From Craspedostauros australis (lineage: Eukaryota > Bacillariophyta > Bacillariophyceae > Mastogloiales > Achnanthaceae), in assembly GCA_026770025.1 (NCBI GenBank), contig JAMXDE010000015.1, positions 1,612,001-1,676,000 on the forward strand: 64,000 bases of DNA. The letters run 5' to 3'. Position 1 is the stretch's first letter. The number at the start of each line of letters is the position of its first letter. The notes under the pieces were generated by a model. That model was given only the letters and a program-made list of their open reading frames with translations, had not been told where the DNA came from and ran no database searches. This document shows positions 23,384 through 52,957 of this stretch, in pieces. Made by a program: the position numbers and the translations under genes.

Positions 23384-23632
23384 CTGTTTGTCATCGGCAT
23401 ATACGGGACTCGATCAATTTGGCCAGCGGCATCAATGCCTCGGTTTGTTTCTCCGAAATAGGTCCAACAGAATTCCTCAGTAAGTTCTTCGAGAGGAGAT
23501 TCGTTCTTCGCCAATCGTGAAATGTCAATTGCGGGCTTCTTGTGTCTGAGTGACAAAATTGGTTTTGGATGTCAAAGTAGTCGTACTAGTCGAAATACGT
23601 TTCCGTTGCTTTTTGCCGGGTGTCCCTGGTGG
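23384..23632 (-). pseudogene. duplicated 3' fragment of an unidentified gene, copy 1
   Basis: The minus strand reads RHKKPAID, RLAKN, FCWTYFGE, RGIDAAG and DRVPYMPMT before a stop, broken by an internal stop upstream. A second copy lies at 24,317-24,580. Both end at the same CCGGGTGTCCCTG sequence. The protein family is not recognised. Confidence 0.45.
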
Positions 23633-23960
23633 CACCCACGACCGGGCTATTTTCCGTCATGGTCTCATGGACAAACTGGCAACAGGGAAACTTGCCATCG
23701 CCGATCGTGGATACCAAACCAGCGTGGCGGCTCAACGCGAACAACTGTCACTTCCAAGCGGTACCGACTCGTGGCGGCTCGCCAAGTTCAAAAGTCGGGC
23801 ACGATGTCGTCACGAAAGCTTCAACGGGCGGATCAAGAAATTCAAGTCGATGGACGACACTTTTCGCCATGGGTACGAGTGTCACATGCATGCTTTCGAA
23901 GCAGTGTGTGTCATCATACAGTACCAAATGGACAACGGATCAGAACTCTTTGCAGTGTGA
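23620..23960 (+). pseudogene. PIF/Harbinger transposase, C-terminal part
   Basis: From PGVPGGTHDRAIFRHGLMD the frame carries the second catalytic block (KLAIADRGYQ), 'KFKSRARCRHESFNGRIKKF' with the catalytic Glu helix, and the typical diatom Harbinger end 'FEAVCVIIQYQMDNGSELFAV'. It complements the N-terminal part at 21,351 almost exactly at GTPG/GVPGG. The frame is open from 23,550, but the upstream residues come from the antisense fragment. The transposase has thus been split by about 1.7 kb of duplicated and inverted DNA, or two different copies each lost one half. Confidence 0.7.
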
Positions 23961-34461: not shown

Positions 34462-37400
34462 TCACTCTTCTCGGTCCACTGCTGACCGAGGCTGGATGAT
34501 ATCTCCCTTGTGTCTGTCGTAGATCTCCTTCTTCGTGTTCTTGGTGAAGCCGTCAGCGATGTTGTCTTCTGAACGTACGAACCGGGCTCTGGCCTCTTTG
34601 TTCGCAATCAGCTCTCGGATGAAGTGGTGTCGGATATCGATGTGTCTGGTTCTGGCCGATGTAGATGGGTTGGAAGCGATGAAGATTGCTCCCACGTTGT
34701 CAACCATCACGTCTGTCGGCCTGTGCATCTCCAACCCGATGTCACTCATCAATTGCGTCAGGAAGCGGATCTCCTTGCCTGCTTCCGACAGTGCAACGTA
34801 CTCTGCCTCCGTTGAGCTCAGCGTCACGCTGCGTTGTGCCTTCGATCTCCAGATGATAGGCACTCCCTGTAGTAGGACGAGGTGTCCTCCCACACTGATG
34901 CGATTGTCCTTGTCACCAGCGAACTCGCTGTCGGTATACACCACAATCTTCCATGCATCGTTCTCCAAGGGTTTCGGTCTCATCTTCAGACCGTACTCTC
35001 TCGTATCCGACACGAACTTCATGACTCTCAGCATCTCCTTGTATGCTGCGGCTGTTGGTCCGTCCAACACCTTGGTCAGTTCTCGCACTGCATTGGCGAT
35101 GTCGGGTCGTGAGTGTTTCACCAGGTATAGCAGCATCCCCACTCCGCTTCGGTAGTTGCTGTGTCGCTGCTTGTCGACCTTTGGTGAGTCACTCTCTCTC
35201 TGGATGCCTTGTCCTGGCGTCCCTGGTGTACCGTATCGTTGCAGCTTCATCACATCGTCCTTGAAAGTGCTGACGATGTTATTGATGATGTGCGGTTGGT
35301 TCACCCAGCAATTGGTCTCGTCGTGGTTGAAGTTGATCTTGCAACTGAGATAGTCTTCGAGATCTTCCTCCACCTTGATACCGAATCGCTTTGCCTTGAT
35401 GTCCCCCACGAGGTTCTTCAGCTCCTGTTCATCCCCGATGCACAGGCAGTCGTCGACGTAGGTTCCGATCAGTAGCATTCTCCCTTCCTGATTCCGGATC
35501 AGGAGGCATGGATCCACCTTGCTCTGTCTGAATCCCATTTCGATCAGGATGTCGACCAGCTTCTTATTCCACTGCCTGGCGCTCTGCACGAGCCCATAGA
35601 TCGTCTTCTTGAGCAGCAAGCATTCGTCGGCCTCGTGCCTCATGCCTTTCGGGCATTGCATGTAGATCTCCTCTTCGAGATCCCCATGCAAGAACGCTGT
35701 CTCGAAGTCGATGATGATGCAGTCCATTCGAAGAAGCATCTTCATGGTTAGCATCACTCGGTAGGTAGCGTCGTGGATCACCGGTGCATGGTGCGCTGAG
35801 AAGTCGACTCCTGCAATCTGGGAGTACCCACATGCAACCAGTCGGGCGCGGAACACGCCGTTCCTCTTCTCCTTGAACACCCACTTGGTCTTCACGCATC
35901 GTCGATCGTATGGCATCTCGCTCTTCTTGATCTTCTGCCATACTCCTCTTCTGGCCATGTCGGTGAACTCCTTGTTGATAGCTCCACGCCACTTCTCTCT
36001 CTTCTCGGGATCAGCATGATCCCAGCACTCCTTGAACGTCGTTGGATCCAACATCACAGCTGTGTTGGCTTGTTCGGACCATTCACCATTCCGTTCGTTC
36101 TCAACATCCTGACTCGCAGCGATGAAGTCGATAAGTCTCATCCTCCCTTGGGTAGTATCGATCATCATGCCGGCGACGTCCCTGTTGAACATCGACCCAT
36201 CTGTGTGGAAGCTGGGCCCTCCAGTAGCCGCGGGGACTATCATCGTCTCCTGCGCAGTGTCGTAGCCATCCTCATCCCTTGATGCTGATGCTTCGCCTGC
36301 CTCCGATTCCGAATCCGATTCTGATTCTCGTTCCCTCTCCTCTTGGGGAATCGGTGAGTTGTTATAGCCAGCCAGGCTACTCACCATTCTCGGTACGCGC
36401 GCCAATGGTCTCATGGGAGTGCGTGCATTCGATTGCTCAGTAGCCAAATCGATCTGCCCCGCACGGTCGTTGTCCCTTCCGGTTTCATCGTCCTTATCGT
36501 TGATCGATGGTTCTTCCCCTTGGGTAGGTAGCAAATTATCTTGCTCGTGAGCGGTGTCGTCTGTGTTTCTTGTTGTGTGTCCGGCTCTTCCGCTCCTCTC
36601 TGCGACGCCGATCTTCGCACTCCTTGCGATGTTCGAGCTTCGCCCCCAAGTCACTCTCTTTCTCTGGAATGCATCTCCAGTGTCAGAGTCGTCGTCTTCC
36701 AGATCATGTATCATCGATCTGTTGGCATTCTCAACACCCTTGAATTGCCCATACGACTGGTTCATCCATGTCACATCTCGCGTGATTAGGATCCTTGCCG
36801 TTGCGAGGTTCATCATTCGGTATACACCGCTCGCATGTGATTGTCCGTATCCGACGAACATAGCAGGCTTGGACCGGTCGTCCAGTTTTGCCTTGATCAC
36901 TCGGCCTCCGATGAACACCATGCCAATCTCGCCGAACAAACGCAGTCCGTCCACGTATGTGGGTGTCTGCCCATTGAATAGCACGCAAGCCGGTTCTCTC
37001 GACTTCGTTCCGATGATGTTCTCGAGTTGCGTCGCTGTTCTTGCTGCTTCAGCCCATAGCTTTCCTCGTAGGTGCTTTGGTAGGTGGGTCTGATTGAGCA
37101 TCGCCCTGACCTTTCCGTATAGCACGGCGAACTTTCGTTCCACGCGACCATTCTGCTGTGGAGTTGAAGCTGCCGTGTATTCGAACGTCGGGCCGAATCC
37201 CTCCTTGAGTAGCTGCGCCTCTGCGCTGTAGTTCTCGCCTGCGTTGTCACATCTGATATTCTTGACAGTCACGTTCTGATTCGCCTTGAGCCATCTCAAG
37301 AGCGACATCATCCTCGATCCCACTTCACTCTTCTCTTTGATGAAGTAGCTCCAGCAGTAGTCGCTGTAGTCGTCGATGATCAGGAGCCAGAATTTTCCGC

Positions 37401-40266
37401 GACCAAAACTGTACGTCTGGACACTGGAAGTATCCATGAACAGCCGTTCGCCAACTCTGCTCGCCTTCGCCAGTGACATTTTCGACAAACATTTTTGTCG
37501 AGATTTGCCGATTGCACAGTCCTCACATGGATTCATTCGTCCTATGACATTCCATCCGTATCGCGCAGCAGTGCGCGAGATAGTGTAAGTGTCAACGTGG
37601 CCTAACATTTTATGGATTTGATTGATGTCGACCGCCTTGCCGGTGGACACACCAATGTTTGCCATCTCATGTTCGGCTGGGACCGCCACCATGTTCACGC
37701 CGGAAACGAATCCGCTGTGAGTCGCCATGATGCGGTCGAAACGGATGCGCAGTCCGTTCTTCTCGAGAGCCATCACCACACCCTTGTTGCTGATGTCGAA
37801 TCCGCTTTCGAGTGCCTTCGTGATGCTCAGGAGATTGACCCAAAGCTTGGGGACGAACTTGACCGCCTTGAGGATGATGATGACTTCCGAGCCATCCTTC
37901 TGCATCACCTTCATGCGTTTGTCGCCCACCTTCGTTGCTTTGAGGTAGCGTCCGCTTCCCACCTTGACTGCAAAGCTCGCGAGGCGCACATTCGTCATGC
38001 CCTCGTCGCTGTTAGTGAGGTGGCAGGATGCTCCCGAGTCGCCAAGCCAGGTGTTTGCCTCGTGGCAATCTGGCGCGATGGTCTTCTTGCGTTCGCCGGC
38101 GTCGTACATGTCGCCGATCACCATGGCTAGCTCATGCGCATGGTGGTACCCGTAGATGGGCAACTCGTCGAACATGTGCCCGTCGCGCACGCCGTTGTCC
38201 GATGGATGGTGAATCCAGAGCAGGCGATCCGCGGCCATGGCGCTCATACGCGAGATCAGGTTCTTCGGGAGTGGCGGGAGACGATTCTCCTCAAGCAAAT
38301 CGTTGATGTCGATTGCCTTGCTCGCCACGTCGTATGCTCCGATCACGCCGATGGTCATCAGCATGAAGTACACACTCCGCACTTCCATGCGGTTCTCGTC
38401 GATGCCTTGGTATGCCTCCATCGCGTCATAGCAGATGAGCGAGAGGTCGGAACGAACATCGTTCGCAGGCATCACGTTGGACAGCGAGCATCTCACCGCA
38501 TAAGGAGGGCTGTCGCTTCCAAGGATTTGGCGCCGTTGGAGCTTCTCGGCTGGTGTCACAGGCACGTCTCCCTTTGGTCCTCCTGGGATGAGGATCAAGA
38601 ATGGGCAGAACGGGCAGTCAACACACCACGAGAACAAAGGCCCTTTGGTCAGGCACAGTGGGCACCACGCGTTGTCGTTGTCGCGCCGAGACGCAGTCTC
38701 GATCAATCCGTCCAAGTAGGAGCGGATGGGGCGCACGTTGTAGACCGGCTCTGGTCGCCTTGCTGAGGCCGTCGCGTGGAGGTCGATGCCGGGCATCGCG
38801 ATCTCGTTGCTTTCGGTTTTGTCAGCTTCGCTCTCATCAGACGAGAACAAGTTGTCGCTCATCATGCGATCCGCGTCGACTTGCGGTCCGTAGTAACCGT
38901 AGTCGTTCGGGCTGCGGATCCCAACCACTTCGATCGATCCCTCGTCGTTGTTGTTGTTGGTTCCGTTGTAGAACCCTGCAGGCAAGTCTCCGTCGACGAC
39001 CATGAGAGCCATGTCCTCCATGAGGTTTTCGATGTTGCTCTCCGTGTCGTGGATGCGTGTTGTCACGATTTCGTGGTCGGTGAGAATTTGTTTTTCGCTC
39101 ACATTTTTGGTGTTGCGCGCGATTTCTCCGTCCTCCGCGATTTCGTGACACAACATCACATCATCGACGCTGACCAGCGCGACGTCGTCCATGCCGTCCA
39201 TCCCGTCGGTAGCCACATTGGCTGAATCTGCGTCCTTCATTGCAGCTCTCAACTTGAAGCATTGCACGATCTTGTGGCCTGTCTTGCCACAGAACTTGCA
39301 CTTGCCGTTGAAGCCTCCGGCGCTGAAGTTGCCGTTGTTGCGGTTGCCATTGCCGCGGTTGCCGTTCTTCTTGGCGCCACCGCCTTGCTTGCCGTTGCCG
39401 CTCTTGGTTGGGGAGCGACAGTCCGCCTTCTTGTGCCCGTAGACGCCACAGTTGCGACAGTTGCCCTTGAACCCGCCGATCGCGGCCAAGGCCATCTCCT
39501 CCTTGCCATGGTTGCCTCCTTCGCGCTTAGAACCATGTTTGGTATGGTGGCGGTCGTAGGTGAGGCACACGGCCTCGCGGATGTCTTCAACTGTCATCTT
39601 GTCTTCTTTGCCTGCAAATTTGAGCTCTATGAGCTTCACGTCCATCTCGTAGTCTCTCCCGAGAGCGTTGAGCACAAGCATGTTGTATTGCTCGGCGTCC
39701 ATTTTCACGCCAGCACTCTCCAAACGGTTGCGGAGCACCTCCATGTCGGTGAGGAACGAATCAGGGCGCTCACCCTTCTTCAACCGCATTCCGTTGAGTT
39801 GAGCCAACAACTGCGCCTTCACTGGTGCAGTACGTTGCTCGTAGATGCGCTCGAGCGCCTTCCACGCCTTGCGTGGGTCACCTGCCTCGTAGGTACCGCT
39901 CTTGCATCCCAGCACAGCCATGAAGGCAACATTGCCTTCCGGAGTTTCATGGTTAATCGCCATGGTCAGTTCTTCAAACGCGTACTTCGCCAACGCCTTA
40001 CGGTACTCAGCCTTCTCCTTGTAGGACATGACTGATACCTTCTTGGGTTCCCCCGTACCCGAGTCTCCGCCCGTCGTCGGGGCAAGACCGGATGGTCCGA
40101 GAGGTTCATCCTTCACCACCACGGCATCCGCAGCTTGGAGGTAAAAGTTCCCGTAGCCCTTGCGTTCAGCGCGGGTGAGGAACTTAGCGCTCCATGCATT
40201 CCAGTTGGACTTCTTTCCGTCGAACACGATGGGGTAACGATCGGACTTGCCAAAGAGGGAACTCAT
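34462..40266 (-). CDS. Copia A gag-pol polyprotein
   Basis: 1,934 residues from the Met at 40,266, chosen because it aligns with the Copia B start (MSSLFGKSDRY against MTSFLGKTDRY); the frame is open 23 codons further. Order: gag (1-265); two CCHC zinc knuckles (270-283 CRNCGVYGHKKADC; 323-336 CKFCGKTGHKIVQC); an extra region of about 400 residues with WCPLC...CVDC (Cys at 535, 538, 548, 551); protease DSGA (743-746); integrase with H885, H890, C914, C917 and catalytic D945, D1007, E1043; RT with YVDD (1603-1606); RNase H with D1779, E1821, D1856, D1877. It copies element RNA to DNA and integrates it. Single-frame gag-pol is typical of Ty1/copia. The extra Cys region is not standard. Confidence 0.95.
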   Translation of the reverse strand: MSSLFGKSDRYPIVFDGKKSNWNAWSAKFLTRAERKGYGNFYLQAADAVVVKDEPLGPSGLAPTTGGDSGTGEPKKVSVMSYKEKAEYRKALAKYAFEELTMAINHETPEGNVAFMAVLGCKSGTYEAGDPRKAWKALERIYEQRTAPVKAQLLAQLNGMRLKKGERPDSFLTDMEVLRNRLESAGVKMDAEQYNMLVLNALGRDYEMDVKLIELKFAGKEDKMTVEDIREAVCLTYDRHHTKHGSKREGGNHGKEEMALAAIGGFKGNCRNCGVYGHKKADCRSPTKSGNGKQGGGAKKNGNRGNGNRNNGNFSAGGFNGKCKFCGKTGHKIVQCFKLRAAMKDADSANVATDGMDGMDDVALVSVDDVMLCHEIAEDGEIARNTKNVSEKQILTDHEIVTTRIHDTESNIENLMEDMALMVVDGDLPAGFYNGTNNNNDEGSIEVVGIRSPNDYGYYGPQVDADRMMSDNLFSSDESEADKTESNEIAMPGIDLHATASARRPEPVYNVRPIRSYLDGLIETASRRDNDNAWCPLCLTKGPLFSWCVDCPFCPFLILIPGGPKGDVPVTPAEKLQRRQILGSDSPPYAVRCSLSNVMPANDVRSDLSLICYDAMEAYQGIDENRMEVRSVYFMLMTIGVIGAYDVASKAIDINDLLEENRLPPLPKNLISRMSAMAADRLLWIHHPSDNGVRDGHMFDELPIYGYHHAHELAMVIGDMYDAGERKKTIAPDCHEANTWLGDSGASCHLTNSDEGMTNVRLASFAVKVGSGRYLKATKVGDKRMKVMQKDGSEVIIILKAVKFVPKLWVNLLSITKALESGFDISNKGVVMALEKNGLRIRFDRIMATHSGFVSGVNMVAVPAEHEMANIGVSTGKAVDINQIHKMLGHVDTYTISRTAARYGWNVIGRMNPCEDCAIGKSRQKCLSKMSLAKASRVGERLFMDTSSVQTYSFGRGKFWLLIIDDYSDYCWSYFIKEKSEVGSRMMSLLRWLKANQNVTVKNIRCDNAGENYSAEAQLLKEGFGPTFEYTAASTPQQNGRVERKFAVLYGKVRAMLNQTHLPKHLRGKLWAEAARTATQLENIIGTKSREPACVLFNGQTPTYVDGLRLFGEIGMVFIGGRVIKAKLDDRSKPAMFVGYGQSHASGVYRMMNLATARILITRDVTWMNQSYGQFKGVENANRSMIHDLEDDDSDTGDAFQRKRVTWGRSSNIARSAKIGVAERSGRAGHTTRNTDDTAHEQDNLLPTQGEEPSINDKDDETGRDNDRAGQIDLATEQSNARTPMRPLARVPRMVSSLAGYNNSPIPQEERERESESDSESEAGEASASRDEDGYDTAQETMIVPAATGGPSFHTDGSMFNRDVAGMMIDTTQGRMRLIDFIAASQDVENERNGEWSEQANTAVMLDPTTFKECWDHADPEKREKWRGAINKEFTDMARRGVWQKIKKSEMPYDRRCVKTKWVFKEKRNGVFRARLVACGYSQIAGVDFSAHHAPVIHDATYRVMLTMKMLLRMDCIIIDFETAFLHGDLEEEIYMQCPKGMRHEADECLLLKKTIYGLVQSARQWNKKLVDILIEMGFRQSKVDPCLLIRNQEGRMLLIGTYVDDCLCIGDEQELKNLVGDIKAKRFGIKVEEDLEDYLSCKINFNHDETNCWVNQPHIINNIVSTFKDDVMKLQRYGTPGTPGQGIQRESDSPKVDKQRHSNYRSGVGMLLYLVKHSRPDIANAVRELTKVLDGPTAAAYKEMLRVMKFVSDTREYGLKMRPKPLENDAWKIVVYTDSEFAGDKDNRISVGGHLVLLQGVPIIWRSKAQRSVTLSSTEAEYVALSEAGKEIRFLTQLMSDIGLEMHRPTDVMVDNVGAIFIASNPSTSARTRHIDIRHHFIRELIANKEARARFVRSEDNIADGFTKNTKKEIYDRHKGDIIQPRSAVDREE

Positions 40267-40341
40267 GATGATGGTGGTGATAAGGGTGATGGCGAGTGTT
40301 GCTGTGCTGATGGTAGTAGAAACGTAGGATTTCAATCGTAA

Positions 40342-40353
40342 CGTTTCGAAACG
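40342..40353 (-). promoter_or_regulatory. palindrome at the expected primer-binding position, Copia A
   Basis: CGTTTCGAAACG, a perfect 12-bp palindrome, sits where the primer-binding site should be, adjoining the 5' LTR. The following bases (TTACGATTG on the minus strand) are also shared with Copia B. No TGG-type site complementary to a tRNA 3' end is present. Confidence 0.6.
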
Positions 40354-41149
40354 TGTTGGAAATCCGGGGTTATAGATATAGTCTAATGCTTATTAAACTG
40401 TACCGTTTCAGAACTGTGAGAACAACACACTCATTTCTCAAATCGTCAACTCGTTTGCCCATGATGATGTTGATGGCCTCCTGTAGTTGCCCCTCACAAT
40501 CATCATTGCAGTCTCTCTCTCTCTGTCATGCCCATTTCATTGCTCATAACATGTGCATTTCACCATGCTCGTCCTGCTGAGATATCAGTCTACACTCCTG
40601 AGGTGCATGCATGCTGATGCTTGATTCATTCTCTTCTCATCAGGCATCCATCACTCATTCAGTACACTCTTCCGTGTTGTTCACTCACTCCTCTCACATG
40701 CTCACCGACAATCACACTTGCTCAGAACATGGAGTTCTGGCACGATCAGTCCAGTCCTTCGATGTTGTTCCAGTCCGCGCTTTGTTCTTCTTCGCTGGTT
40801 CTCTATTGGTCACGTAATCATGTTCTGGGTTCCGAGCGATTCAGTCCGTGATTGCGTCCTTGCATAGATGTTTCAAGTTAACCGGTCAACCCTCATGCTT
40901 GGAACACTTCGGTGTTCCAGTCTCCTTTTTACATCCATCGTTCGCCATACCAGTTCGTCAATCCACTAAAACCATGTCTCACGATTAGTCTGTCCGTCGT
41001 CCGTCATACTCTTGACACACAGAGGAGGAGGTCCACAATAGACTTGGGAGCGTGTCCGACTTTGATAGATCGGTGAGTCTAATTTTGGTATTATGGGAGG
41101 TGCGGCAATCTAGGATAATACGACATAGTCGCACCCTCGATTCCTGACA
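40354..41149 (-). repeat. Copia A 5' LTR
   Basis: 796 bp, same length as the 3' LTR, offset 6,759 bp, no mismatch found on reading. Both encode the same incidental frames. Should carry the element's promoter. Confidence 0.95.
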
Positions 41150-43882: not shown

Positions 43883-46206
43883 TGTTGGAAATCCGGGGTT
43901 AGTGTTAGTAAGACCTAATTCGTTGTTAGACCGTACTATTCAGAACTGTGAGCTCATTCTCTTCAGCTCCTTTGCCTTTCGTTTCTCATATCCACAAGGA
44001 TTTTTCGTCGCACAAAAGTCGAAAAGTTGCGTCAGGACGCAACAGTCTCAGAAAATTTCGATTTCTTGCGTCAGGACGCAAACCGAGAATTAGCGTGGCA
44101 AATTAACACGACGAAAAAATTGTATCGACTAGTTGGACTGATGGCCTCAAAAACATCCTCCTCTTGTGCGGGCTTCCTTCGTGTTATTTTCTGAGCTTTT
44201 TTTCGTGTTGTTTTCGCGTAGTGTTCAGTGTTCTCTAGATCAAACACATACTCTAGAGGATGCTGCCATTTGCAGTGATCATGAGGATGCCAACTCTAGT
44301 TTGTTGGTACCATATTAGTAATAGCACTACCACAACAGCATAGACGTGGTGTTTTGTTTAGCTAGCCAGTGTCTTCATGTCTACTCGACTACGTGCATTT
44401 GTTGGTGTATCGATAGGACCTGCGGTCCTTTCCGTGCCTACTTCACATTGAGCAGTTCCTCTCCAGGCATCTTCACATGGAATCAGTGTCTATTTCATTC
44501 ATTTTGAGGTGAGATGTGCATCTTGGTTTGTGTTTGCATCTATTTTGCCTGGGTCCAACCTCATTGGATGATCCAATCGAATCAAGATCGCCATCCTTGT
44601 GCTTATCTTTTAAGCAAAGATTGCTTGGTACATTGAGAAACATGAATGTGTTAGTACTATCATGAATAAGAAGATGTACATATGTGATAGCAGGACGGCA
44701 ATCGGATTCACCCAGATTCTGGCCGCACGCATGACCGCCGCGAATGCAGTTGCTTTCCCACGCATTTGTTTCTGCCAACCAAAGGGATCTCACTTGACAA
44801 CAGTACAGATACATACTGGCAAACACCATCTGCTTCTATTGTTTCTATGCCTCATGTGGTCTTAGAATTGAACTCCGCACAGGAAGAACATCCATGCCTT
44901 CGTTGGTGCAAAATCTTGCGTGAGATTCTTGTTTGCGGCGGGGATGCGCCAAGTGTTGAAAGTCCAAACCCCGTAAGCACAAGCTTGAGGACAATTGACA
45001 GAGCATTGCATTTTATTTGAAGCGATGTGGAATGAAAGAGAGCCTTGCACTTGTGTAAAAACCAAGATTGTTGATGATCAATGTGCGGAGGCGAATTGTC
45101 GTGCAGAAGGCACGAACTATGTGCCCCGAACAGCACCACAGATAACACAGAGCTGATGGGTGAGCGGAAACACTCTTTTAACTGAGAAGGAGCAAACATA
45201 GGCAGCAAAGCTGGCAAAGAGAATGGTAGTTTCACAACAGGAAGGAGGACAACGGAGCCGGATGCGAAATATCTGGCTCCTTTCCTCCTCTACGCAAGCA
45301 GGAGAGTATGGAAGAGGCGAAGAATGTGATTTACAACACATAGAATCACTAATGTATGGATTGCAGCATTGAGAGAGTTGTTTCGATACTATTGTTGCTG
45401 GAAGTGGAGCGCAGATAAGATTTGCATCCATCAGTACAAAACAACACGGTAAAACACACAGTATTTGTCCCAAAGCACAGGCGACAAATGACGATATTGG
45501 ACGATTTGTGGAGCGAGTGTTCGAGTGAGTCATATTATTTTGCGCTCCGTGTTAAATCTCCACGATAAAGTCAATTTTGCGTCCTGACGCAAACTTATTT
45601 CGGGGTTGCGTCAGGACGCAAGAAAAGCCGTTTTTGCGTCCTGACGCAAGGGTTTTCTCCTTGTGGATATAGCATCTCCTGCAGCAGCATCGTGTTATAC
45701 TGTTGCATTCATGCATCTCTTCATCATGAATCATCGCTTGCATACATGAGATCGCATCCGCAGGCATCCTTTGTCATGCACATCGTCGTGCATATCCTTA
45801 TTCTACATTCCCTGCGGTACGATTCCACAGTCTTGCGTTTCGCTCTTGATCTCCTGACACCGAACTTTCCGATTGGTGTCATGATTGGTGTCATGGATGA
45901 TGCGCTTTCTGAGTTGTTCTAGTCCGTGGGTGACACGTGCCATGATCTCCAGATGGGGTGATCATCAATGTGTCGGTCATCATCTTCCTTCACATGATTT
46001 AGATATCGTGTCCTTTTCTTGATTCATAGAGGACAGACTTGTTTGCTTGGTAAGACTGAGGTCATTCCCGTGTGATTCGTGTCGTGGGTGGAATGGATAA
46101 TATTCAATGGTGTGACGAATAATATCCAAAGGTGTGACAAATAGTGTTGGGAGTTGCGGCAATCATGGGTATCTTTCCGACATAGTCGTACCCTCGATTC
46201 CTGACA
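43883..46206 (-). repeat. Copia B 3' LTR, interrupted
   Basis: The LTR halves 43,883-43,991 and 45,671-46,206 flank the nested DNA transposon. The ends TGTTGG and CTGACA are intact. Confidence 0.95.
43992..45666. mobile_element. 1,675-bp DNA transposon with clustered 16-bp quasi-palindromes
   Basis: Ends CCACAAGGA and its inverted partner TCCTTGTGG. Flanked by ATAT (43,988-43,991 and 45,667-45,670); the uninterrupted LTR copy at 52,313 has a single ATAT at this site, so the boundaries are exact. TTGCGTCAGGACGCAA or its complement occurs at 44,027, 44,066, 45,577, 45,606 and 45,634, all within 90 bp of an end. No protein domain is recognised inside, so it is probably non-autonomous. The superfamily cannot be assigned. 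Confidence 0.9.
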
Positions 46207-46216
46207 CCCTTCCATT
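46207..46216 (-). other. Copia B polypurine tract
   Basis: The minus strand reads AATGGAAGGG next to the 3' LTR, as in Copia A. Confidence 0.75.
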
Positions 46217-46281
46217 GTCGCATCGACAACACATCACTCACACTCTCACATTTTTCATAATTTCGCGTCCTCTTCTCTCCG

Positions 46282-49200
46282 TCACTGATCCATTGTGGAA
46301 CGCAGTTGGATGTAGTGATCCTTGTGTTTTTCGTAGGTCTCCTTTTTGGTATTCTTTGTAAAGCCGTCTGCGATGTTGTCTTCAGAACGCACAAATTTGG
46401 TTCTGGCTTCTCCGTTTGTGATCAGTTCTCGAATGAAATGATGTCGGATGTCGATGTGCCGTGTCCTGGCGGATGTTGATGGGTTGGACGCGATGAAGAT
46501 CGCTCCAACATTGTCAACCATCACATCTGCTGGCTTGTGCATCCTCAGTCCGATGTCGCGAATCAATTGTGTTGCGAAGCGAATTTCTTTTCCTGCCTCC
46601 GACAGGGCGACGTACTCTGCTTCCGTCGAGCTGAGTGTTACGCTCCGTTGTGCCTTTGATCTCCATATGATCGACACTCCTTGTAGTAGGACGATGTGCC
46701 CTCCTACGCTGATGCGATTGTCTTTGTCACCTGCGAATTCGCTGTCGGTGTATATTGCAATCTTCCATGCGTCTTGGGTCAGTGGACTTGGTTTCATCTT
46801 CAGTCCATACTCTCTCGTGTCCCATACGAATTTCATGACTCGAAGCATTTCCTTGTATGCTGCGGCCGTTGGTCCATCCAACACCTTGGTCAATTCTCGC
46901 ACTGCATTGGCGATGTCGGGTCGAGAGTGTTTCACCAGGTATAGCAGCATACCTACTCCGCTTTGGTATCTGCTGTGTCGCTGCTTGTCCACTTTGGGTG
47001 CGTCGCTTTGCCTTTGGATGCCTTGCCCTGGGGTCCCAGGCGTTCCGTATCGTTGCAGCTTCACCACATCGCTTCCGAACGTATCGATGATGATCTTTAG
47101 GATGTGTGGTTGGTTCACCCAACAGATCGTTTTGTTGTGGTTGAAGATGATCTTGCAACTCAGGTAGTCTTCGAGATCTTCCTCCACCTTGACACCGAAT
47201 CGTTCCGCTCGAATATCCTTCACGAGCTTTTTCAATTCCTGCTCCTCTCCAATGCAGAGGCAATCGTCCACGTAGGTGCCGATCAGTAGCAGTCTCCCTT
47301 CCTGATTCCGAATCAGCAGGCAGGGGTCCACCTCGCTCTGTCTGAACCCTAGTTTGAATAGGATGTAGACGAGCTTCTTATTCCATTGTCTCGCGCTCTG
47401 CACGAGGCCGTAGATGGTTTTCTTGAGTAGCAGGCATTCGTCGGCTTCGTGCCTCATACCCTTTGGGCATTGTATGTAGATCTCTTCATCGAGGTCTCCA
47501 TGCAGGAATGCTGTCTCAAAGTCGATGATGATGCTGTCCATGTGTAGTATCATCTTCATCGTGAGCATGATTCGATATGTTGCATCATGTATCACTGGCG
47601 CGTGGTGTGCTGAGAAGTCGACTCCTGCGATTTGCGAGTATCCGCATGCCACGAGTCTGGCGCGGAATACCCCATTTCTCTTTTCCTTGAAGACCCATTT
47701 GGTCTTCACACACCGCCAATCCTTCGGCATCTGATCCTTCTTGATCTTTTCCCATACTTTCCTTCTGGCCATATCATAGAACTCTTTGTTGATAGCTTCG
47801 CGCCATTTCTTTCTTTTGTTGGGATCCGCATGGTCCCAGCAGTCTTCGAATGTGGTGGGGTCTAGCAGCATAGCGACATTCGCATGTTCTGCCCCTCCCT
47901 CATTTCGTTCGTCTTTCAATGCCTGGTCCGCAGCAATGATGTCATCTAGTCTCATCATTCCATGAGGTGTGTCTATCATCGTACCTGCGATATCTCTGTT
48001 GAATATTGACCCGTCTGCGTGGAAGTCGGGTCCTCCTGTTTCCGGTGGAGTTGTGATGGTCTCTTCGGGCGTCACATATCCCTCGCTGTCATTAGTTTCT
48101 GACTCATCATTCGATTCGAGGTCTCGCTCCTCCTCTGGGATTGGGTCGTTGTTATACCCGGCGAGAGCACTCAGCATCCTTGGCATGCGTGTTACAGGTT
48201 CTGCGACAGGGGTATCTTTGGGCTCTTTCTCAGCTGCTTCGTCTGCATTCCCCTCGTCGTCCCTTCCGAATTCATCGTCGATCTCTTCGTTCGATTCATT
48301 TTCCCCTTGGGCAGGGAGCAAGCTATCTTGCCCTCGCGCAGCGTCATCAGTATCTTCTATTTCTTTGGCTCTGCTGCTGCGATCCGCGTCGTCGGCCTCC
48401 ATGCTCTTGATGGTCTCCGATCGTCGCTCCCAAGTTGTTCTCGTAGCTCGGGTGTTCATACCCGACGTAGAGTCGTCATCTTCTAGATCTATCAGCATAG
48501 ATCTGTTGGCATTCTCGATACCTCTGAATTGCCTGTATGACTGATTCATCCATGTCACGTCTCTCGTGATTAGGATTTTGGTTGTAGCGAGATTCAGCAT
48601 TCGATATACTCCTTTCGCGTGCGATTGGCCGTAGCCGACGAACATGGCTGGTCTGGATCTATCGTCCAGCTTAGCCTTTATCGTACGACCGCCAATGTAT
48701 ACCATCCCTATTTCTCCGAATTTTCGTAATCCATCCACGAATGTTGGGATCCGGTTGTTGAAGAGAACACATGCTGGTTCTCTTGTCTTTGTCTCGATAA
48801 TATTTTCGAGCTGAGTCGCGGTTCGGGCTGCCTCCGCCCACAATTTTCCACGCACTGTTCTCGGGAGATGCGTTTGGTTGAGCATGGAGCGGACTTTCCC
48901 GTACAATGTCGCGAATTTTCTTTCCACGCGACCGTTCTGTTGGGGAGTGGAAGCGGCAGTGTATTCGAACGTTGGGCCGAATCCTGCGCTGAGAAGCTGT
49001 TTTTCCGCGGCATAATTCTCTCCCGCATTGTCACATCTGATATTTTTCACATGTGCCTGTTGGTTGGAGTGAAGCCATCGGAGGAGCGTGATCAGCTTTT
49101 CTCCGACTTCACTTTTCTCTTTCAAAAAGTAGCTCCAGCAGTAATCACTGTAATCATCGATGACAAGGAGCCAATATTTTCCTTGTCCGTAGCTGTGCGT

Positions 49201-52200
49201 TTGAACACTCGATGTGTCAATGAACAACCGCTCACCAATTTCCTTTGCTTGGAGCTGCAGACGTTTTGTCATTGACTTCTGCTTCTGTTTTCCAATTGCG
49301 CAGTCAATGCATGCATGCAACTTGCCTGTGACATTCCAACCGTATCGTCCCGCTGTGCGAGAGATCGTGTAAGTGTCAACATGGCCTAACATTTTATGAA
49401 TTTGGTTGATGTCCACCGCGGACCCGGTGGACACGCCGACATTGGCTTGGTCCTCGTGGGGAGGGGCGCTGATCATGTTCACTCCACTCACGAAACCGCT
49501 ATGGGTTGCCATGAGTCTGTCGAACGTGATGCGTTGCCCGCGCTTCTCCAAGCTCATCACGACACCTTGGTTGCTGATGTCGAAGCCGTTCTCGAGAGCT
49601 TTGTTGATGCTCAAGAGGTTCACCCACAGGTTGGGCACGAACTTCACTTGCTTGAGCACGATGGTAGCTTGGTTCCCGTTCTTCTGCATCACGACCATGC
49701 GTTTATCGCCAACCTTCGTTGCCTTGAGGTATCGGCCGCTGCCGATCTTGATGGAGTGGTTGGCCACTCGCACGTTAATCATTCCCTCTTCGCTATTGGT
49801 GAGGTGGCATGAGGCACCGGAATCACCCAGCCAAGTGTTTGCTTCGTGGTGGTCGGGGGCGATGGTGTGGCGGAGTGCGCTTCCATTGTCGAGGTCACCG
49901 ATCACCATGGCCATGTCTGGTTGAGCTTCGGCGGCTCGGTAGATGGGGAGCTGGTTGAACTCCTCTGGGTCTCGGACTCCTTGGTCACCTGGATGATGCA
50001 TCCACATCAGCATCTCTGCGGCATGCTGAACCAGGCTGTCGATGAGCCCTCTGTGGATGGGTGGCAGGTTGAGCTCTTCAAGCCTTGTGTTAATGTGTTG
50101 CACGGCTTGCACCAGTTGCATTGGCGTGTACACGTCGATGCGGTGCATCATGTAGTAGAGCGTGCGAGGGTTCAGGCTTTCTCCTCCTCCTTCGGTGTAC
50201 GCGTGCGCCGCGTCGCAGCACAGTAGGGCGAGCTCAGAGCGCACTTCATCAGCAACCATCATGTTGCTGAGAGAGTATCTCATGGCGACATGCAGAAGTC
50301 CCGCAGTCCAGAGCTTCTGGCGGCGCGTCATGATGTCTTGGATCGTTGTTGGCGCCGCCCTTGCAGGGGGGTTTGCCAGTTGGATGAGGAACGGCGAGTT
50401 ACGGCAGGTCTTGCACATGGCGTAGAGAGGGCCGCGCTGAAAACACAGCGGGCACCATCCTGCGGTGCTCCCTCCGTTGCGGGACGACTCTTCGATCATT
50501 CGATCGACCAGAGTCCTTGGTTCGGTTCGAGAGTAGATGGTGGAGGTGACGCGATGGTCGACTCCAGGCATCGCTACTTCATTCTCCATGATGTCTCCGA
50601 CGTTGAGGGGTTCATCCTTGTAGACGATCCCTTCGAAGAGATTGTCTTCGTCGGTGTAGTCGTCTTCATCGCTTGATGGGAAGTGCTCGCGGTTGATGGT
50701 CTCAACTGCAGCAACTGGGGGTCCGTAGTATCCGTACACACTTGGGGTGTGGGCCTCTCGTTCCTCTTCAGAGTACTCGACCTCTTCTTCGAGGTCGAGT
50801 CCGGTCATGTCTTCGTCGGTGGTTGCGAGGGCCATGTCGTCGATGAACGACTCGTAGTGCGCCATGTTGGTGGTGTTGATTGTTTGGTTTTTCTTGATGT
50901 TCGTGATTTCGTCAATTGTCACGATTCTTGGGTTGGTCACATTTTTGACCTCAGCGGGGTCGGTTGCGAGCTCATCGATGGGGAAACACACCAATTCTTC
51001 GTTGTTGGCCGACTTGTCTTCGTCGGGCAACCACATTGATTCATCGGTCATCACGAGACCGATTTCGTCTTCTTCGTTGTTAGCGGGCATCCACATGGGT
51101 TCATCTACCACGACGAACGCGGTGTTGTCTGCCGCGGCGTCTTCGGGTAGCCACATCGGTTCCTCGACCATCACGAGGGCGACGTCGTCTGTTCCGTCCA
51201 TACCGTCGGTGGCCACGTTGGCGGCGTCGGCTGCTCTCATAGCTGCCTTCAACTTGAAGCACTCGAGGATCTTGTGTCCCTTCTTACCGCAGTACTTGCA
51301 GTTTCCGTTGAACTTGGTCTTGTCCTCAGTATCACTTCTCTTGTTTTTCTTCGTGGGCTTGCCTCCTTTGTTCTTTGGCGCAGAGCGGCAGTCAGCCTTC
51401 TTGTGCCCGTAGGCGCCGCAGTTGCGGCAGTGGCCCTTGAAGCCACCAGTGGCGGCAAGAGCCATTTCTTCCTTGCTATTGTTCTCGCGCTTACTACCTC
51501 CTTGCTTGATGTGACGTGCGTCGTAGGTTGCACTCACTGCTTCGCGGATGTCTTCGATAGTCATCTGCTTTTCGATGTTTTCGAACTTGAGCTCGATGAG
51601 CTTCACATCCATTTCGTAGTCTCTTCCGAGAGCGTTGAGCACGAGCATGTGGTACTGCTCCATGTCCATGTTAACTCCCGCGTGCTTGAGGCGGTTACGG
51701 ATCACCTCCATTTCGGTGAGGAAGGTATCCGGGTGTTCGCCTTTCTTCAATCGCATCCCGTTGAGTTGAGCCAACAACTTTGCCTTCATTGGCGCAGTGC
51801 GTTGCTCGTAGATGCGCTCGAGAGCCTTCCACGCCTTGCGAGGGTCTCCTCCCTCGTAGATGTTGCTCTCGCATCCCAACACAGCCATGAAGGCGACATC
51901 GCCTTCGGTGGTTTCATGGTTGATTGCCATGGTCAGTTCTTCAAACGCGTACTTGGCCAGAGCCATCTTGTACTCCGCCTTCTCCTCGGGAGACATGGCA
52001 GATAACTTCGAGGCCTTAAGCTTCTTCTCTTCGCTTCCCGCGATGGAAGCGAGAGGAGAGGGGTCAAAAGCCTCGGTCTTCACAATCACTTCACCCAAGT
52101 CCTTGAGATACAAGTCTCCGTAACCCTTGCGGTTGGCGCGGGCAAGGAACTTCGCACTCCAAGCTTTCCAGGAGGATCGCTTGCCGTCGAACATGATCAT

Positions 52201-52233
52201 GTAACGATCGGTCTTACCGAGGAAGGACGTCAT
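46282..52233 (-). CDS. Copia B gag-pol polyprotein
   Basis: 1,983 residues, uninterrupted. Gag (1-265), zinc knuckles CRNCGAYGHKKADC (269-282) and CKYCGKKGHKILEC (312-325), then an extra region of about 470 residues before protease DSGA (804-807). That region starts with three 20-residue repeats (about 351-410, each with a form of EPMWLP) and contains WCPLC...CKTC (Cys 594, 597, 607, 610). Integrase has H946, H951, C975, C978 and D1006, D1068, E1104. RT YVDD lies near 1654-1657. RNase H follows, with YTDSEFAGDKDN, SSTEAEYVALS and MVDNVGAIFIA. Strongly similar to Copia A throughout except the hinge before RT and the extra region. Coding capacity looks intact although the 3' LTR carries an insertion. 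Confidence 0.95.
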   Translation of the reverse strand: MTSFLGKTDRYMIMFDGKRSSWKAWSAKFLARANRKGYGDLYLKDLGEVIVKTEAFDPSPLASIAGSEEKKLKASKLSAMSPEEKAEYKMALAKYAFEELTMAINHETTEGDVAFMAVLGCESNIYEGGDPRKAWKALERIYEQRTAPMKAKLLAQLNGMRLKKGEHPDTFLTEMEVIRNRLKHAGVNMDMEQYHMLVLNALGRDYEMDVKLIELKFENIEKQMTIEDIREAVSATYDARHIKQGGSKRENNSKEEMALAATGGFKGHCRNCGAYGHKKADCRSAPKNKGGKPTKKNKRSDTEDKTKFNGNCKYCGKKGHKILECFKLKAAMRAADAANVATDGMDGTDDVALVMVEEPMWLPEDAAADNTAFVVVDEPMWMPANNEEDEIGLVMTDESMWLPDEDKSANNEELVCFPIDELATDPAEVKNVTNPRIVTIDEITNIKKNQTINTTNMAHYESFIDDMALATTDEDMTGLDLEEEVEYSEEEREAHTPSVYGYYGPPVAAVETINREHFPSSDEDDYTDEDNLFEGIVYKDEPLNVGDIMENEVAMPGVDHRVTSTIYSRTEPRTLVDRMIEESSRNGGSTAGWCPLCFQRGPLYAMCKTCRNSPFLIQLANPPARAAPTTIQDIMTRRQKLWTAGLLHVAMRYSLSNMMVADEVRSELALLCCDAAHAYTEGGGESLNPRTLYYMMHRIDVYTPMQLVQAVQHINTRLEELNLPPIHRGLIDSLVQHAAEMLMWMHHPGDQGVRDPEEFNQLPIYRAAEAQPDMAMVIGDLDNGSALRHTIAPDHHEANTWLGDSGASCHLTNSEEGMINVRVANHSIKIGSGRYLKATKVGDKRMVVMQKNGNQATIVLKQVKFVPNLWVNLLSINKALENGFDISNQGVVMSLEKRGQRITFDRLMATHSGFVSGVNMISAPPHEDQANVGVSTGSAVDINQIHKMLGHVDTYTISRTAGRYGWNVTGKLHACIDCAIGKQKQKSMTKRLQLQAKEIGERLFIDTSSVQTHSYGQGKYWLLVIDDYSDYCWSYFLKEKSEVGEKLITLLRWLHSNQQAHVKNIRCDNAGENYAAEKQLLSAGFGPTFEYTAASTPQQNGRVERKFATLYGKVRSMLNQTHLPRTVRGKLWAEAARTATQLENIIETKTREPACVLFNNRIPTFVDGLRKFGEIGMVYIGGRTIKAKLDDRSRPAMFVGYGQSHAKGVYRMLNLATTKILITRDVTWMNQSYRQFRGIENANRSMLIDLEDDDSTSGMNTRATRTTWERRSETIKSMEADDADRSSRAKEIEDTDDAARGQDSLLPAQGENESNEEIDDEFGRDDEGNADEAAEKEPKDTPVAEPVTRMPRMLSALAGYNNDPIPEEERDLESNDESETNDSEGYVTPEETITTPPETGGPDFHADGSIFNRDIAGTMIDTPHGMMRLDDIIAADQALKDERNEGGAEHANVAMLLDPTTFEDCWDHADPNKRKKWREAINKEFYDMARRKVWEKIKKDQMPKDWRCVKTKWVFKEKRNGVFRARLVACGYSQIAGVDFSAHHAPVIHDATYRIMLTMKMILHMDSIIIDFETAFLHGDLDEEIYIQCPKGMRHEADECLLLKKTIYGLVQSARQWNKKLVYILFKLGFRQSEVDPCLLIRNQEGRLLLIGTYVDDCLCIGEEQELKKLVKDIRAERFGVKVEEDLEDYLSCKIIFNHNKTICWVNQPHILKIIIDTFGSDVVKLQRYGTPGTPGQGIQRQSDAPKVDKQRHSRYQSGVGMLLYLVKHSRPDIANAVRELTKVLDGPTAAAYKEMLRVMKFVWDTREYGLKMKPSPLTQDAWKIAIYTDSEFAGDKDNRISVGGHIVLLQGVSIIWRSKAQRSVTLSSTEAEYVALSEAGKEIRFATQLIRDIGLRMHKPADVMVDNVGAIFIASNPSTSARTRHIDIRHHFIRELITNGEARTKFVRSEDNIADGFTKNTKKETYEKHKDHYIQLRSTMDQ

Positions 52234-52300
52234 GGTGATGATGGTGAGAGTCGTTTGTTGCTGTGTTGGTGATGATGGAAACGTAGGATTTCAATCGTAA

Positions 52301-52312
52301 CGTTTCGAAACG
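52301..52312 (-). promoter_or_regulatory. palindrome at the expected primer-binding position, Copia B
   Basis: CGTTTCGAAACG adjoins the 5' LTR, identical to Copia A. Confidence 0.6.
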
Positions 52313-52957
52313 TGTTGGAAATCCGGGGTTAGTGTTAGTAAGACCTAATTCGTTGTTAGACCGTACTATTCAGAACCGTGAGCTCATTCTCTTCAGCTCC
52401 TTTGCCTTTCGTTTCTCATATAGCATCTCCTGCAGCAGCATCGTGTTATACTGTTGCATTCATGCATCTCTTCATCATGAATCATTGCTTGCATACATGA
52501 GATCGCATCCGCAGGCATCCTTTGTCATGCACATCGTCGTGCATATCCTTATTCTACATTCCCTGCGGTACGATTCCACAGTCTTGCGTTTCGCTCTTGA
52601 TCTCCTGACACCGAACTTTCCGATTGGTGTCATGATTGGTGTCATGGATGATGCGCTTTCTGAGTTGTTCTAGTCCGTGGGTGACACGTGCCATGATCTC
52701 CAGATGGGGTGATCATCAATGTGTCGGTCATCATCTTCCTTCACATGATTTAGATATCGTGTCCTTTTCTTGATTCATAGAGGACAGACTTGTTTGCTTG
52801 GTAAGACTGAGGTCATTCCCGTGTGATTCGTGTCGTGGGTGGAATGGATAATATTCAATGGTGTGACGAATAATATCCAAAGGTGTGACAAATAGTGTTG
52901 GGAGTTGCGGCAATCATGGGTATCTTTCCGACATAGTCGTACCCTCGATTCCTGACA
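52313..52957 (-). repeat. Copia B 5' LTR
   Basis: 645 bp, complete; provides the empty-site reference for the nested transposon (CTCATATAGC). Confidence 0.95.

Follow-up and report, generated by a model that had tools for sequence, protein, structure and literature searches.

PiggyBac transposons are recognised by a TTAA target, tips that read CC[C/T]T and terminal inverted repeats (TIRs) of 12-19 bp, according to the passages available on them (PMC2872659). The C-terminal domains of the T. ni piggyBac transposase pair on a palindromic 19-bp repeat at bp 17-33 of one end, and the CRD recognises TGCGT/ACGCA (PMC7351741, PMC8086355). The excerpted account of piggyBat indicates that both the CRD fold and the palindrome can vary within the superfamily (PMC11707139). 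Nucleases occur in other DNA transposons. ISL2EU, of the PHIS group, encodes a YqaJ exonuclease as a separate ORF, duplicates AT within an A-AT-T target, has a THAP-bearing transposase and usually GG tips, and the hosts in which it has been found are animals, as described in the relevant passages (PMC4482050). KolobokP and KolobokD are DDD/E transposons that gained a nuclease, a His-Me finger in the former, which also bears long terminal direct repeats, and a DEDDh nuclease in the latter (PMC9587614, in excerpt). Among diatoms, transposase elements of P. tricornutum and T. pseudonana were described in 2009 as 'weakly related to piggyBac', in passages that give no target, palindromic words or nuclease (PMC2806351).

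Here we describe a lineage with piggyBac-like ends, an ATAT target and a nuclease-like insert in its transposase, a combination not found in the paper listings and passages searched, which were drawn largely from openly accessible literature. In the window, the 64,000-nucleotide stretch of DNA analysed, it is represented by a non-autonomous element (Table 1), whose limits, length and 9-bp TIRs, as drawn in the first-pass annotation, proved exact on re-reading. Both tips read CCACAAGGA, and the two ends diverge from the tenth base on. The element interrupts one LTR of a retrotransposon, and once it is removed the two LTRs differ at 2 of 645 positions. The empty site, in the 3' LTR, reads ...TCTCATATAGCATC... 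with a single ATAT; the filled site reads ...CTCATAT followed by CCACAAGGA at the left junction, and TCCTTGTGG followed by ATATAGCATC... at the right. The net gain of 1,679 bp at the filled site is all that this comparison demonstrates, because the ATAT sequence is palindromic and hardly varies across the family. The 4-bp ATAT duplication proposed in the first-pass annotation is thus retained as the simplest reading, short of proof, over a 2-bp duplication or none, in which AT would be the element's own. A tblastn search with transposases from six loci detected no coding remnant in the element at E up to 1; its sole two matches (E 0.22) fall in loci L006 and L007.

The host LTR belongs to an LTR retrotransposon with 645-bp LTRs at 43883-52957 of the window, which is young because its LTRs differ at two positions; the DNA element arrived later. 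A second related element is apparent from direct repeats between 36685-40372 and 48469-52331 (73-92% identity, spacings of 11.8-12.0 kb), and a Harbinger-type DDE_Tnp_4 match (E 1.2e-6) lies at 23571-23915 (C13:1635571-1635915).

Table 1. Features of the non-autonomous element and its host LTRs, in window coordinates.
Feature	Position	Strand	Remark
Retrotransposon LTR hosting the element	43883..46206	.	645 bp without the element
ATAT, target copy on left	43988..43991	.	
Non-autonomous transposon, 1,675 bp	43992..45666	.	boundaries exact
Left TIR CCACAAGGA, two-word end	43992..44000	+	
Word 1 TTGCGTCAGGACGCAA	44027..44042	.	bp 36 from left tip
Word 2 TTGCGTCAGGACGCAA	44066..44081	.	bp 75 from left tip
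Word 3 TTGCGTCCTGACGCAA	45577..45592	.	bp 75 from right tip
Word 4 TTGCGTCAGGACGCAA	45606..45621	.	bp 46 from right tip
Word 5 TTGCGTCCTGACGCAA	45634..45649	.	bp 18 from right tip
Right TIR CCACAAGGA, three-word end	45658..45666	-	
ATAT, target copy on right	45667..45670	.	
Sister LTR	52313..52957	.	intact, empty site with ATAT at 52418-52421

Five copies of the element were found, the one in the window among them; identity is 95-100% over at least the first 1,460 bases, and three copies are full length. In the copy at L005 (C4:1853923-1860900), the element is split by several kb of intervening DNA that contains long open frames. Searching the genome for ATATCCACAAGGA with up to one mismatch gave 71 + 74 sites (control, 4 + 8); some of this surplus is unrelated, for example in actin genes. 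The variant ATATCCGCAAGGA was dropped, since inspection by eye placed it inside actin genes at both places inspected. Exact ATATCCACAAGGA at both ends bounds two partners of 5.3-5.4 kb, C6:840076-845465 (L038) and C11:540752-546095 (L037), each carrying a transposase gene with matches to all three exons of the enzyme at L008. In a third gene-bearing copy, at C55:118298, one exact end adjoins the gene, and 22 kb separate it from the next exact site. The three-word end of the window element is 98% identical to the C55 copy and 97% identical to the C6 copy, both over 94 bp, and 97% identical over 37 bp to the C11 copy, which retains one of the three words there; the two-word end is 82% identical to C6 and C11 over 125 bp. 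The interior of the window element resembles that of ~2.6-kb elements with CCACGGTGA tips (79-83%, four copies on C2 and C4).

Autonomous copies at L008, L054, L056 and L057 define sister subfamilies, with tips, words and enzyme present in each. The tip is CCATAGTGA in L008/L055 (one tip being lost in L055), CCACGGTGA in L057/L039, CCATAATGA in L054 and CCACGAGGA in L056/L041, and the TIR of L008 is longer than the 9 bp of the window element. Across all fetched loci, 50 distinct ends were identified by the proximity of a tip-like motif to a word; ATAT lies directly outside 48 of them, and flanks 42 of 44 once six ends found only by an ATAT-bearing pattern are excluded. Both exceptions are the two ends of a single decayed copy, L014. 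A CCCTAATGA tip, read as decayed, is present at 2 of the 50 ends, and no base preference beyond ATAT was seen among all recognised ends. Three internal places without ATAT (L009, L039, L057), picked up by a looser tip pattern, are not ends and are omitted by the stricter one. At L054, a neighbouring element with CCATAATGA tips and a further word type (TTGTCTCCACAGGCAA-like) abuts the autonomous copy (L054:8597-9353). Further copies, autonomous partners with a three-exon transposase and a target preference at ends chosen independently of ATAT, matters that the first-pass annotation had left to a genome-wide search, are all in evidence.

The L008 transposase comprises 1,510 aa encoded by three exons, separated by two GT-AG introns; intron 1 has a TACTAAC branch site. 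The three coding blocks are also present in L055, L037, L038, L039, L041 and L053 (L034 and L035 are the same places as L008 and L055), and a protein search with the transposase returned 107 matching stretches in the genome. The L037 and L038 alignments each contain two stops, which, by comparison with L036, we provisionally assign to intron 1. The first acidic landmark (D1, 'TLDDDK') is invariant in 7/7 exon-A rows and the second (D2, 'DxGY') in 7/7 exon-B rows, where it is followed by a mostly conserved 'GT..R...PF'; 'WN..KGGSD' is invariant in 5/5 exon-C rows. Near the C terminus, eight His/Cys residues arranged as H-x4-C-x6-CxxC-x7-CxxCH-x3-C are likewise invariant in 5/5 exon-C rows. These motifs suggest an enzyme with DDD-type landmarks and a C-terminal cysteine-rich domain of zinc-binding type. 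PDB searches by sequence and with exon-B and exon-C profiles gave no relevant match, and no relatives were confirmed in the viral and prokaryotic collections, from which records near this genome may be absent.

As far as the passages on piggyBac (PDB 6x67/6x68) and piggyBat (9c0f) describe those systems, the lineage shares with them unequal ends, a CC tip and a 4-bp, AT-only palindromic target, and its transposase appears to have the same order of DDD landmarks and a similar C-terminal domain of putative zinc-binding type. A palindromic CRD-type site near the tip of unequal ends is also found here, as judged from its sequence and position: the half-site is that of T. ni piggyBac, TTGCGTC starting at bp 18 of the right tip compared with bp 17 in T. 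ni, with a half-site spacer of 4 bp rather than 7 bp. The first-pass annotation knew of no superfamily with the element's combination of features; the layout and the TGCGT/ACGCA half-site are in fact those of piggyBac, whereas the ATAT target, the CCA tip and a nuclease-like insert do set the lineage apart. ATAT takes the place of the TTAA duplication, and the tips (CCACAAGGA, CCATAGTGA, CCACGGTGA, CCATAATGA and CCACGAGGA) begin CCA rather than presenting a CC[C/T]T tip with a 12-19 bp TIR. By the published TTAA, CC[C/T]T rule, as given in the passages available, the element cannot be filed as a piggyBac member (PMC2872659). The piggyBac transposase model PF13843 (DDE_Tnp_1_7) is absent from the three ORFs of L008 at E up to 10 and from seven exon-B and five exon-C rows at E up to 1, yet elsewhere in the same genome it matches 160 stretches, many in long open frames (best E 1.8e-42).

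The silence of PF13843 would suit a separate superfamily not derived from piggyBac, with another DDE/IS4-type core, that had converged on a CC tip, an AT-rich 4-bp target and TGCG palindromes. Consistent with such convergence, DDE_Tnp_1 is the Pfam model that fits the catalytic part best (E 1.2e-4; 22.4 bits, cut-off 23), with matches in 2/7 exon-B rows, and the initial hhalign comparisons with piggyBac were not significant: the first gave E 0.26, and the next E 0.061 with a score of 23.6, which both one of 40 shuffles (25.9) and the reversed control (24.7) surpassed. Against it, a second try, with the cores trimmed and piggyBat, T. ni and the L077 sequence added, gave E 0.0033 under one gap rule and 0.044 under another, at low 'probability' (9.8 and 1.2); in both settings all 200 column shuffles scored lower, as did the reversed control. 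The alignment is colinear over nearly the whole core, pairing D1, D2, 'GT.R..P', 'V..ST' and 'YN..mGGVD'/'WN..KGGSD'. The word position and half-site shared with T. ni piggyBac also count against convergence, which we regard as unlikely; homology to piggyBac is the reading we hold with good confidence.

The five words of the window element, TTGCGTC-NN-GACGCAA, contain no mismatch and all lie inside 90 bp of the tips, two on the left and three on the right, as first annotated. Allowing up to three mismatches, the window holds nine matches, and none of its 100 dinucleotide-shuffled versions reaches that number. The element contains five perfect 7-2-7 palindromes, against 0 or 1 per shuffle (20 shuffles), and the 74.8-Mb genome contains 225 occurrences of the word, against 1 of the reversed control. 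The shuffles and the genome count against this control rule out chance or simple repeats as the source of the words. At complete ends, the words of one end start 17-18, 45-46 and then 75-76 or 85-86 bp from the tip, and those of the other end 36-37 and then 75-79 bp, or 94 bp in the CCATAATGA subfamily; similar word-to-tip distances recur in five subfamilies. Fewer words are present at 7 of the 50 ends, at some because the fetched stretch stops. The presence of words at ends is partly selected, because tip and word were required together, whereas their exact positions are unselected. In the L056/L041 subfamily the word is TTGTCTC-NN-GAGACAA, both arms being altered together (48 genome-wide, 0 in the control), and the words of the L054 subfamily (CCATAATGA tip) have a CG centre. 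At L006, L007, L009 and L021, in the end near the + strand CCACGGTGA tip, the second word is a hybrid, TTGTCTC-CT-GACGCAA, with one half-site of each type, as if between two CRD specificities.

The words look like paired protein-binding sites, a resemblance read from their sequence and position, and binding by the CRD is their probable role. The first-pass annotation had called the locus a DNA transposon whose words look like dimer-binding sites: the transposon is real, and for the words the recurrent offsets and the co-changed arms give the look of paired sites. The words might instead be mainly regulatory, serving as promoter or silencing sites for a host factor, given that autonomous copies have one set on the upstream side of their transposase gene. 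We find this improbable: the words are present at both ends, at similar distances from the tip, even in copies that lack the gene, and in one subfamily the two arms have changed in step.

Between the second and third acidic landmarks, before the third D, the transposase contains an extra domain, which has no counterpart in the passages on piggyBac. In 8/8 inserted domains G..E, S-V-D, E-x-K and Q-L-L are invariant, and the conserved nuclease-type G..E, D, ExK and Q positions, which we take to define the RecE/YqaJ-type PD-(D/E)XK fold, are present; the nuclease motifs are kept in 7/7 exon-B rows. The profile matched most often is phrog_434, a RecE-like exonuclease, in 5/8 domains (E 0.002-0.086); PHROGs of unknown function are weakly matched as well. 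Pfam gives weak matches to two PD-(D/E)XK-type models in 1/8 domains, unrelated weak matches in 2/8 and none in 5/8. We read the insert as a putative RecE/YqaJ-like nuclease, and our most likely guess at its role is the trimming of donor or target DNA ends in the course of repair.

The nearest precedents for the insert, in the passages covered, are the separate YqaJ ORF of ISL2EU and the nuclease genes of KolobokP and KolobokD. Kolobok elements target TTAA. KolobokP and KolobokD resemble the present lineage as DDD/E transposons that gained a nuclease, but their nucleases have other folds, and KolobokP differs further in its long terminal direct repeats. Membership of the PHIS group, through ISL2EU-like autonomous elements with a YqaJ protein and an AT duplication, would account for a YqaJ-type nuclease and an AT-favouring target but is highly improbable, as the nuclease-like domain here lies within the transposase, the target is ATAT and the tips are CC, with no separate YqaJ ORF, A-AT-T target or GG tip, and as hhalign against a Harbinger DDE of this genome scores 12.5-13.4 over 88-142 columns, a weak control with one of its two rows in the wrong frame.

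We conclude that the window element is non-autonomous and probably moves by cut and paste, using in trans the transposase of the 5.3-5.4 kb partners that share its tips, an enzyme that would work like piggyBac. In the proposed mechanism, the C-terminal cysteine-rich domains of the transposase would pair on the 16-bp palindromes, the outermost 18 bp from one tip, and the two- and three-word ends would be synapsed asymmetrically. The DDD catalytic core would then cut at the CC tips and join the element to ATAT, leaving ATAT on both sides; excision may proceed through a hairpin or be seamless. The lineage is probably a deep relative of piggyBac that works like it with a different tetranucleotide. 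The 2009 diatom elements, compared by description only, may be an earlier sighting of this or of another piggyBac-like lineage. In the present genome, the silicon-transporter family PF03842 has 88 matching stretches, 32 covering at least 483 of 513 profile positions, and the light-harvesting family PF00504 has 61; from these counts we infer that the host is a diatom. The silicon-transporter family is very large, although assembly or haplotype duplication is possible.

A bolder proposal, which we put forward tentatively and at somewhat less than even confidence, is that the lineage forms a distinct superfamily, sister to piggyBac, marked by a lambda-exonuclease/RecE-type nuclease inside the transposase, an ATAT target and subfamily-specific zinc-finger/palindrome pairs at near-fixed distances from the tip. 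If so, it would to our knowledge be without precedent among DDD transposases in having a recombination-type exonuclease within the catalytic domain, and excision might be coupled to end resection. PiggyBac is a genome-engineering tool defined by TTAA, and a relative with the same end design and an ATAT target is a natural system in which to test how the four target bases are recognised. The evolution of CRD specificity could be traced through the subfamilies, whose words and zinc domains are matched, and the built-in nuclease-like domain poses the question of what a cut-and-paste enzyme gains from an exonuclease.
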